Source: SAR202 cluster bacterium (GTDB lineage: Bacteria; Chloroflexota; Dehalococcoidia; UBA3495). From it: 9,786 nt of DNA. The notes under the pieces are model-generated. The model did not search any database. It had not been told where the DNA came from and saw nothing but the letters and a program-made list of their open reading frames with translations. The translations under genes were made by a program, and so were the position numbers. The stretch covers positions 1 to 9,786 of the forward strand of contig VFHG01000195.1 in assembly GCA_009392075.1 (NCBI GenBank), in the 5' to 3' direction. Shown piece by piece: positions 4,174 to 5,707 of this stretch (position 1 is the first letter of the stretch; each line of letters opens with the position of its first letter).

Positions 4174-4887
4174 ATGATCAAAGCGGTCTCGTTCGACTTC
4201 TACAACACCCTGGTCCGGTTCTGGCCCCCACTGGAAGAGATACAACAGGCCGCCTGCCATGAATTGGGGTTGACCGTTGAGGAGGACGCCATCACCCACG
4301 GATACGCCGTCGCCGACGTGCTTTTCAACCGTGAGAACGAAGAGCGCCCCCTCTCCAAACGCTCCGAAGAAGACCGGCTGGAATTCTTTGGACGATACGA
4401 GCAATTGATCCTAAAAACAGCCGGAATCCCGGTCACCATAGACCTGGCCCAAAGGGTCTGGAAGATGGCCATGGCAGTACCGAAAGACTTTGTCCCTTTC
4501 AATGACACTGTGCCTGCTTTAAAGCAACTTAGAGAAGCGGGATACAAGGTCGGCATCATCACCAACCTGCGCCGCAACCTGGACGAACTTTGCGAACAGG
4601 TTGGACTGGCGCCCTACCTGGATTTCGCAGTGGGTTCGGAAGAGGTAGGAATGGAAAAACCTCACCCACCGATCTTCATGGCTGCCCTGGAGCGGGTAAA
4701 CGTGGCCCCCGGGGAAGTCGTTCACGTGGGTGACCAACTCCGTTCAGATGTTATCGGAGCACAGGGCGTTGGCATGCACGGAGTCTTGCTCAACCGGAGC
4801 GGATACGGCCCAGAATCTGGAGATTGTCCCACCATTTCGAGCCTCTCAGAGTTGGGCAAACTCATCGAAAGCTTGAACCAGACTTAA
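4174..4887 (+). CDS. HAD-superfamily hydrolase, subfamily IA, with atypical motif I
   Basis: A 237-residue HAD enzyme with an N-terminal helical cap (about 18-105), the pattern of subfamily IA. Motif I is FDFYNTL: nucleophile Asp8 is present but the usual second Asp, the general acid/base of phosphatases, is Tyr10. Motif II is IITN with Thr130, motif III is MEKPHPPIF with Lys162, and motif IV is HVGDQLRSDVIGA with Asp187 and Asp192. Tyr at the +2 position is typical of L-2-haloacid dehalogenases (FD.YGTL), yet motif IV is the phosphatase/phosphonatase form rather than the dehalogenase SSN form. Substrate is therefore uncertain: phosphate monoester hydrolase or dehalogenase-like. The upstream region lacks a strong Shine-Dalgarno; an ATG-GCG-TAC-TAA minicistron at 4162-4173 ends immediately before the ATG, which could allow coupled initiation. 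No known pathway partner is adjacent. Confidence 0.85.
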   Translation: MIKAVSFDFYNTLVRFWPPLEEIQQAACHELGLTVEEDAITHGYAVADVLFNRENEERPLSKRSEEDRLEFFGRYEQLILKTAGIPVTIDLAQRVWKMAMAVPKDFVPFNDTVPALKQLREAGYKVGIITNLRRNLDELCEQVGLAPYLDFAVGSEEVGMEKPHPPIFMAALERVNVAPGEVVHVGDQLRSDVIGAQGVGMHGVLLNRSGYGPESGDCPTISSLSELGKLIESLNQT

Positions 4888-4970: not shown

Positions 4971-4976
4971 AGGAGG
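4971..4976 (+). promoter_or_regulatory. Ribosome binding site that fixes the selenoprotein start
   Basis: A perfect AGGAGG sits 6 bases before the ATG at 4983. It decides that translation starts at 4983, upstream of the in-frame TGA at 5055. The alternative TTG at 5094 has no comparable site. Confidence 0.85.
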
Positions 4977-4982
4977 GTCCAG

Positions 4983-5645
4983 ATGGCCCAAGCAACCCAC
5001 ACCCACAGGCAGGACAACGAACCGGTCCATATTGCCGTTTGGTACGACTATATTTGACCCTGGTGCTACGTCGGCCTGGAGCGGGTCGACAAGTTGGCCA
5101 ACGAGTACGAGATCGCTGTTGAAGGCCGGGCATATCTGCTGCGGCCCGACACCCCCAAAGAGGGCGCAGAGCGGCCACCACGCCCTGGTGAAACCGCCGA
5201 TGAATTGTCCGAGCCCCTGCGCGGCCAGGCCAAAGACTCAGGACTGATTATGAAGCCGCCGGGCCGGACTCCCAACACGCTATACGCCCTAGAGGCCACG
5301 GAGTACGCCCAGCAGCACGGCAAGTTCCTTGATTTCCACCATGCCGCCTATAAGGCTTTCTGGGAAGACCGGCAGGACCTGGGCGAGCTTGAAGTCCTCC
5401 ACAAGGTGGCCCACGAGGTTGGCCTGGATGCCGACGAAATGGTGAAAAGCCTGGAAGAAAAGACTTACGCTGAGACGGTCATGGCCCAGTACCAGGAAGC
5501 GCTGAAGTACGGGATCAGCGGAATCCCAACCTTCTTGGTGGGCAACCTGATCTTCACTGGCGCCCAGCCCTACAACATCTTCAAGACAGCCATGGAGCGA
5601 TACCTCGCCGAAGGAGTGCCTCCAGCTGAAGAAGGCGAAGGGTAG
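4983..5645 (+). CDS. DsbA/FrnE-family thiol oxidoreductase, predicted selenoprotein (UPWC active site)
   Basis: A 220-residue protein when the TGA at 5055-5057 is read as selenocysteine (residue 25). It has a thioredoxin fold with a helical insert, as in FrnE-like members of the DsbA family. Beta1 is VHIAVWYDYI, then U25-P-W-C28-YVG as the redox motif, RAYLLRPDTP (about 55-64), a helical domain (about 100-165), and the cis-proline loop GISGIPTFLV with the GAQPY segment near the C-terminus. There is no signal peptide, so it is cytoplasmic, unlike periplasmic DsbA. Cys28 is the only cysteine in the protein, which makes a resolving partner at position 25 functionally necessary. Coding potential and family similarity run in one frame on both sides of the TGA, and AGGAGG precedes the ATG. 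Likely role: dithiol/disulfide or peroxide-linked redox chemistry; substrate unknown. Alternatives are a nonsense-mutated pseudogene or a sequencing error. A standard call would start at TTG 5094 and lose the active site. Confidence 0.85.
5055..5057 (+). other. In-frame TGA, predicted selenocysteine codon
   Basis: The TGA replaces the codon for the first cysteine of the CPWC motif: flanking codons give YDYI before it and PWCYVG after it. The frame is open for 24 codons upstream and 195 downstream. It is followed by C, a weak termination context in E. coli. Genes nearby use TGA as a true stop, so this is local recoding rather than a changed genetic code. Confidence 0.82.
5070..5090 (+). promoter_or_regulatory. 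Bacterial SECIS-like hairpin inside the coding region
   Basis: The arms GTCGGCCT (5070-5077) and GGGTCGAC (5083-5090) pair over 8 base pairs, six Watson-Crick and two G-U, closing a five-base loop GGAGC (5078-5082). The stem starts 12 bases after the TGA and the loop 20 bases after it. The first loop base is G. This matches what is known of bacterial SECIS elements: immediately downstream of UGA, apical loop about 16-37 nt away, and a G in the first two loop positions that SelB recognises. Pairing was done by hand; no energy was computed. Confidence 0.65.
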
Positions 5646-5676: not shown

Positions 5677-5707
5677 AAAAAGACCCGCTTGATAGCGGGC
5701 CTTTTTT
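5677..5707. terminator. Bidirectional rho-independent terminator
   Basis: CCCGCT (5684-5689), loop TGAT, AGCGGG (5694-5699) form a GC stem. The A-run at 5677-5681 and T-run at 5702-5707 extend it through an A/C mismatch. Each strand has a U-tract after the stem, so it can end both the selenoprotein gene (+, stop at 5645) and the ABC operon (-, stop at 5729), which converge here. Confidence 0.9.

Follow-up and report, generated by a model that had tools for sequence, protein, structure and literature searches.

A gene of the DsbA family in a SAR202 cluster bacterium is interrupted by a TGA codon precisely at the first position of the CPWC active-site motif, raising the question of whether this codon is read as selenocysteine (Sec) or belongs to a damaged, misannotated or differently decoded gene. 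We analyzed the whole 9,786-nt stretch containing the gene (hereafter, the window), together with related loci and genomes. We infer Sec incorporation itself, with a probability of about 0.96 that the internal TGA is read as Sec and that the gene encodes a bacterial selenoprotein, because the codon is conserved, homologs carry Cys opposite it, the relatives' genomes contain sel genes, a predicted SECIS hairpin follows the codon, and synonymous variation there is low. The same evidence supports the original prediction, in which the selenoprotein reading was proposed.

A DsbA-family gene with a TGA at its active site

The gene occupies positions 4983–5645 of the forward strand and forms one frame from an ATG at 4983 to a TAG at 5643–5645, encoding 220 residues with putative Sec at residue 25. 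Translation confirms that this frame is broken only at the first Cys of the CPWC motif, as originally described: the sole internal stop, TGA at 5055–5057 (codon 25), is followed by CCC TGG TGC, giving U-P-W-C, in which Sec25 would be the attacking residue and Cys28 (5064–5066) the resolving one. The product contains no Cys other than Cys28, again in agreement with the original prediction, and 25 of the 33 near relatives described below also have just one.

A Shine-Dalgarno sequence, AGGAGG, is present at 4971–4976, 6 nt upstream of the ATG. All 33 relatives have an upstream ATG about 24 codons 5' of the TGA, and GGAG occurs just 5' of it in 32 of them, the exception being L025. The claim of an intact ribosome site holds; the terminator claimed along with it is weak on its own: a terminator-like hairpin with a T run lies at 5684–5699, and a terminator search returned two overlapping sites compared to 1.0 expected in shuffled sequences. 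ARAGORN detected no tRNA in the window.

The product matches the Pfam family DSBA (PF01323; 4.5e-34, 118.3 bits, cut-off 25.6) with UPWC at the active site, and its best PDB match is FrnE of Deinococcus radiodurans (5cp1, 9.1e-18), the CPWC of which aligns with residues 25–28. Together with the conservation of the TGA, these matches underlie our designation of the gene as a putative FrnE-like selenoprotein gene of the DsbA family.

Near relatives were collected by scanning genome contigs for two exact peptide patterns located away from the motif, a scan that covers copies matching those patterns rather than more distant ones; 59 stretches matched, of which 33 were relatives, all in metagenome-assembled genomes (MAGs) titled SAR202, Chloroflexi/Chloroflexota or Dehalococcoidia (L020 was excluded from set A2). 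Identity to the window protein goes down to 56%, and the nearest relative found, SAR202 isolate OSU_TB47, shows 96% identity and the same gene order. Codon 25 is TGA in all 33 loci, each time followed by CCN TGG TGY, and none of the 33 has a further stop inside the gene (a second stop in L014 is the gene end); the true stop is TAG in 17, TAA in 11 and TGA in 5. For codons -11 to -1, pN/pS is 0.18 among 13 close genes and 0.20 among 34 genes, and past the TGA it is 0.13 for codons +13 to +60 (13 close genes) and 0.24 for +13 to +30 (34 genes). Purifying selection acts on both sides of the TGA, and because the same codon is TGA in every near locus as well, the pattern goes beyond chance. An ordinary CPWC gene hit by a nonsense mutation or a sequencing error would equally show a frame interrupted by a single TGA, but this explanation has a negligible probability and is refuted by the conservation of that TGA in all 33 loci, which stem from other assemblies, have no other internal stop, retain the ATG and ribosome site, and show low pN/pS before and after the codon (0.18 and 0.13 in the close genes). 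The original prediction had argued against a random nonsense mutation and had suggested looking for related genomes with TGA at the same codon; such genomes were found, and the argument is borne out.

Sec and Cys forms across Chloroflexota

Searching 400 Chloroflexota genomes with the window protein produced matches in at least 234. Among the matches listed, down to an E value of 6e-21, codon 25 is TGA in 69 and TGC or TGT in 20 of 89 loci, and it is TAA or TAG in none of these 89; the expected alignment of the TGA with Cys in homologs was thus observed. We regard this as the fairer count; of the matches listed down to 6e-21, it lacks just two, the one in G076 and a second copy in G038. One of the 89, L054, duplicates the L014 gene, and without it, 68 of 88 listed loci carry TGA. 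Within these 88, TGA occurs in 66 of the 74 listed copies with at least 30% identity, and in 2 of the 14 below 30%, the other 12 having Cys; the canonical FrnE signature IWSD..CPWCYIGKRRFE prevails in the latter group. With 16 lower-scoring loci added, the listed matches comprise 78 TGA and 27 Cys copies out of 105, a count in which the loci below 6e-21 were chosen largely for a TGA flag and many stop-free matches in that range were left out. These 105 loci were retained from 109 that were read (L054–L163 without L162), after dropping L118 and L124, in which the match starts past the motif, L155, which belongs to another family, and L163, which is the L072 gene; L122, L157, L158 and L159 were called TGA by eye and were seen again in the tree set. 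A first motif regular expression matched only 1 of 30 distant loci and was replaced by another method. The Sec motifs in the wider set are UPWC, UPFC and UPYC.

A quickly built tree with 136 rows requires 10 changes of the Sec/Cys label (8 of them forced by starred branches) compared to 25.1 for shuffled labels. Of its 133 inner branches, 46 are open, and several long branches meet, so that neither the deep joins nor the count of switches is certain. The window belongs to a starred group whose 35 rows are all Sec. The tree counts, like the hairpin counts below, rest on the larger, partly TGA-selected set; L054 was left out of both, and L117 and L161 were also omitted from the tree for length. 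We lean towards the view that, in Chloroflexota, the FrnE-like branch near the window usually attacks with Sec, with repeated Sec/Cys switches, whereas the canonical FrnE type is mostly Cys, and that the database copies are N-terminally cut.

Several individual loci deserve mention. The genome that carries L014 also contains a second, distant TGA copy with the motif UPFC (L084, G014:C1:3438700-3440000), so that paralogous Sec FrnE-like proteins seem to co-occur in one genome. L154, from G381, is of the canonical FrnE type (IWSDIV-U-PWCYIGKRRFE) and has TGA amid Cys kin, possibly reflecting a recent change from Cys to Sec. More distant DsbA-like groups (L157, L158, L159, L160 and L161) have TGA at the same place, for example, EYY-U-PWCYVAAVRL, and are perhaps separate Sec families.

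A candidate SECIS hairpin and the selenium machinery

A predicted SECIS hairpin lies at 5070–5090 of the forward strand, with a stem formed by 5070–5076 and 5084–5090 and the loop UGGAGCG at 5077–5083. Its most stable form, with 9 bp, a 3-nt loop GAG, -12.4 kcal/mol and a spacing of 21, fits the bacterial SECIS (bSECIS) model, given in a passage of a 2026 review as a loop of 3–9 nt, a stem of 4–16 bp, G in the first two loop positions, a spacing of 16–37 nt and MFE of at most -7.5 (PMC13188914). Applied in a strict form with contiguous stems only, the model is matched by 24 of 34 near sequences (2.6 expected from recoding), the other 10 near hairpins failing this form, and by 60 of 73 far Sec sequences (8.8 expected). 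A stem at nucleotides 16–22/30–36 with at least 6 of 7 pairs is found in 34/34 near, 48/73 far Sec and 2/27 Cys genes, compared to 0–6 sequences for each of 13 other registers tested, and GG occupies loop nucleotides 24–25 in 53/73 far Sec genes versus 2/27 Cys genes; raw pairing counts are confounded by amino-acid differences between the Sec and Cys sets, but the recoding test is unaffected. In that test, stability relative to synonymous recodings had a mean z of -1.78 for the near (34), -1.17 for the far Sec (73) and -0.27 for the far Cys sequences (27), with p = 5e-5 for far Sec against Cys.

Synonymous sites behave in the same region as follows: synonymous codon identity is 0.826 at codons +1 to +12 versus 0.487 elsewhere, the highest of 179 codon windows, and pS among the 13 close genes is 0.125 at these codons, compared to 0.480 before and 0.571 after them. 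The SECIS signal emerged with a shorter stretch, the synonymous-recoding control and a fixed register. The 71 nt after the TGA, taken from the window alone, have no excess stability (z = 0.36), RNAalifold applied to the near set returned a different fold with no compensatory change, and Rfam gave no window match above the gathering score, only four weaker ones. Separately, 7 of the 27 far Cys genes have a SECIS-like hairpin versus 2.3 expected from recoding, and these hairpins may be remnants after the loss of Sec.

The protein database offers a different picture of the gene start. It yielded 651 relatives, and among the 120 matches listed, 119 start downstream of the TGA, whereas one, P0044, reads the codon as W; residues 1–95 used as the query gave 204 matches, and among the 120 listed, only P0044 covers more than 67% of the query, with no full-length Cys form. 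Such starts would be expected if the TGA were a true stop, ending a 24-residue open reading frame that is followed by an independent protein roughly 180 residues long, and the window indeed has a frame of 183 aa beginning with TTG at 5094. However, the called starts vary among relatives (MANEY.., MEGRAY.., MRPDT..), as in forced calls; strand 1 and the active site would be lost, yet both are conserved; the SECIS hairpin occupies the gap; and the ribosome site precedes the upstream ATG. On these grounds, we reject a downstream start as very improbable. Judging from the sequences, the starts past the TGA and the Trp reading in these entries (P0002–P0121) are a systematic annotation error; truncation at TGA is a known route to the discovery of selenoproteins, described by Haft et al. 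as told in a passage of PMC13188914.

If the TGA is read as Sec, the relatives should possess the decoding machinery, and the search for sel genes that the original prediction called for, run on the genomes of the 33 near loci, recovered most of it. SelA was detected in 27 of the 33 (1 of 14 controls), SelB, above the cut-off, in 26 (2 of 14 controls), and SelD in 29 (2 of 14 controls). All 29 SelD genes, one of them in two pieces, have an in-frame TGA of their own somewhere along the gene; SelD is a putative selenoprotein of the same genomes that would depend on the same decoding machinery, but it is an unrelated enzyme. A tRNA-Sec scoring 62 bits or more was present in 25 of the 33 genomes. 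The Rfam gathering score is not specific for these genomes, as 5 of 14 controls passed it along with 29 of 33 near genomes. The scores form two classes, one of 62–70 bits and one of 52.6 bits or less, and only the upper class was counted, the lower matches being taken as other tRNAs. The original prediction had named the absence of selB/selC from a complete genome as refuting; the relative G014, which consists of a single contig (4,000,658 bases, titled chromosome 1), carries SelA, SelB, SelD and tRNA-Sec, whereas G004 and G008 have SelD only.

In the 400-genome Chloroflexota sample, of which 399 were tallied (G014 and G034–G431), SelB was found in 307 genomes. Considering the matches listed down to 6e-21, SelB is present in 66/68 genomes with a TGA copy versus 241/331 others (Fisher, 1.2e-6), and with the TGA-selected tail of listed matches included, in 70/72 versus 237/327 (3.7e-7). 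At the gene level, the link between TGA and SelB among the listed matches is weak (67/2 versus 16/4; p = 0.021 for 89 copies, 0.037 for 105), because SelB occurs in most of the sample. Two genomes with a TGA copy, G128 and G250, had neither SelB nor SelA in our search; gaps in MAGs likely explain sel genes missing from TGA-carrying genomes.

The machinery also bears on a change in the meaning of UGA, by reassignment or readthrough, to Trp or some other residue, a possibility for which the W of P0044 (IWPWC) could be cited. That entry, however, would fit gene calling under code 4; 5 of the 33 relatives terminate this very gene with TGA; the residue opposite the codon in the non-TGA homologs (20 of the 89 loci, among the matches listed) is always Cys and never Trp; and the sel genes are present, with SelD also interrupted somewhere by an in-frame TGA. 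Reassignment is accordingly rejected as highly improbable.

Proposed chemistry and earlier records

The best AlphaFold2 model of the window protein has a mean pLDDT of 77.7 (55.7–61.0 for the other four), and we are moderately sure of its fold. In this model, Sec25 is placed just before a helix (26–41) and Pro182 just before a strand (183–186), a predicted layout that is the arrangement expected for a thioredoxin fold. Pro182 is part of a GIPT segment (residues 180–183, positions 5520–5531), in which G180, I181 and P182 are invariant in set A3 and T183 is nearly so, and it is presumably the cis-Pro of the fold.

We propose that the protein would be a soluble, FrnE-like thiol-disulfide oxidoreductase of the DsbA fold with the active site Sec25-Pro-Trp-Cys28. 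The UGA would be decoded by SelB and Sec-tRNA-Sec, guided by the SECIS hairpin that starts 12 nt past it. Sec25, sitting opposite Pro182 where the helix that follows strand 1 begins, would attack substrate disulfides (or oxidized thiols) through its selenolate; by analogy with the family, Cys28 would resolve the mixed selenenyl-sulfide, and a thioredoxin or thiol system of the cell would afterwards reduce the bond between Sec and Cys. An outside reductant is likely because the window protein does not have a C-terminal CXXXXC. The location would be cytosolic, with no signal peptide apparent by eye, and we infer the catalytic direction, substrates and electron donor as proposed here. Judged by analogy, this disulfide chemistry, with Sec25 attacking, Cys28 resolving and the cell thiol system reducing, is probable; on the same basis, the protein could conceivably act under oxidative or metal stress.

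It is unlikely that the Sec protein works outside disulfide chemistry, for instance as a reductase acting on other substrates or as an isomerase belonging to the HCCA-isomerase branch. One of the PDB matches, 3fz5 (1e-10), is a possible 2-hydroxychromene-2-carboxylate isomerase, but FrnE scores better (9.1e-18). Furthermore, to our knowledge, the HCCA-isomerase branch is without CxxC, whereas both redox positions are kept here.

Among the known counterparts of the putative disulfide enzyme is FrnE of D. radiodurans (PDB 5cnw/5cp1), which shares the DsbA-like thioredoxin domain and has CPWC opposite UPWC, being the Cys form where the window protein would be the Sec form. Passages of PMC8945050 assign this FrnE to cd03024 and describe it as a cytoplasmic disulfide reductase, the mutant of which shows sensitivity to diamide and to cadmium. 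In these passages, its C-terminal CXXXXC, a feature of many, but not all, FrnE members, is proposed to regenerate the active site. This CXXXXC is absent from the window protein, in which Cys28 is the sole Cys; on sequence grounds, the protein is strictly FrnE-like, without the C-terminal Cys pair of FrnE. The Chloroflexota Cys proteins that share the signature IWSD..CPWCYIGKRRFE with this FrnE branch separately from the window in the tree, which does not include the Deinococcus protein. The only matching NCBIfam selenoprotein model is NF041057 (Rcas_1661 family thioredoxin-like (seleno)lipoprotein), which aligns with residues 98–206 in 34/34 members of A3, leaving the motif half unmatched, and scores 56.6 bits on the window, below its cut-off of 190; a passage of PMC13188914 lists the Rcas_1661 family as DsbG-like.

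DsbA-like selenoproteins with UxxC are already known from ocean surveys, and the window gene adds a member. We take COG2761 to be FrnE. Nine DsbA-like sequences with UXXC were filed under COG2761 from the Sargasso Sea in 2005, and the GOS survey recorded a 'DsbA 1' selenoprotein, according to passages of PMC1088965 and PMC2398784, respectively. The statement, in the original prediction, that Sec DsbA-like proteins had been predicted in metagenomes was right (PMC1088965, PMC2398784), and the FrnE-like form, the prior description of which it left open, had been filed in 2005 under that COG (PMC1088965) and is less new than hoped. The 2026 review lists 'DsbA-like protein form 1' (PF01323, UxxC; PMC13188914), and other passages give 4 DsbA-like selenoproteins and, without naming them, 3 selenoproteins in Chloroflexi (PMC1794560), and DsbA-like in 41 organisms (PMC5029168). 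Form 1 of the Sargasso and GOS data resembles the window gene in its PF01323 domain, Sec as the leading residue of UxxC, marine metagenomic origin and bacterial SECIS, a likeness drawn from descriptions in passages that name no host phylum (PMC1088965, PMC2398784, PMC13188914).

A literature search, with most subscription papers beyond its reach, found no report of a Sec FrnE-like protein in SAR202, Chloroflexota or Dehalococcoidia. The passages of PMC4959059 and PMC5736913 concern formate dehydrogenases rather than proteins of this type, and terms for such proteins are absent from PMC12013277. Within the same search, we did not find in print the SAR202 form with Sec in each copy read, the dominance of Sec in the nearest FrnE-like branch of the phylum with repeated Sec/Cys switches, or the database entries (119 of 120 listed) starting past the TGA. 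The gene would add to a disulfide enzyme a Sec branch that is well supported and comes from marine bacteria that are abundant and uncultured; in the listed members of the family, gene callers remove the active site. If Sec is indeed usual in this branch, abundant deep-ocean bacteria would use selenium on a large scale in the disulfide chemistry of their cytosol. The phylum, with its many natural Sec/Cys pairs, provides a setting to ask why disulfide chemistry retains Sec.

The genomic neighborhood offers a further lead. The window also encodes an alpha/beta hydrolase (minus strand), OtsA, OtsB, RpiB (minus strand), a HAD-family hydrolase and two ABC transporter genes (minus strand), and the HAD hydrolase gene (4174–4887, plus strand) is located directly upstream of the putative selenoprotein gene. 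Among the 33 related loci, 27 have a HAD homolog whose end lies no more than 300 nt upstream of the gene, and 3 have one farther upstream. Of the three loci without one, L033 is a true miss, and L025 and L031 are situated close to the end of a contig. It is possible that the two genes are co-transcribed, and a functional link between the HAD hydrolase and the selenoprotein is likewise possible.
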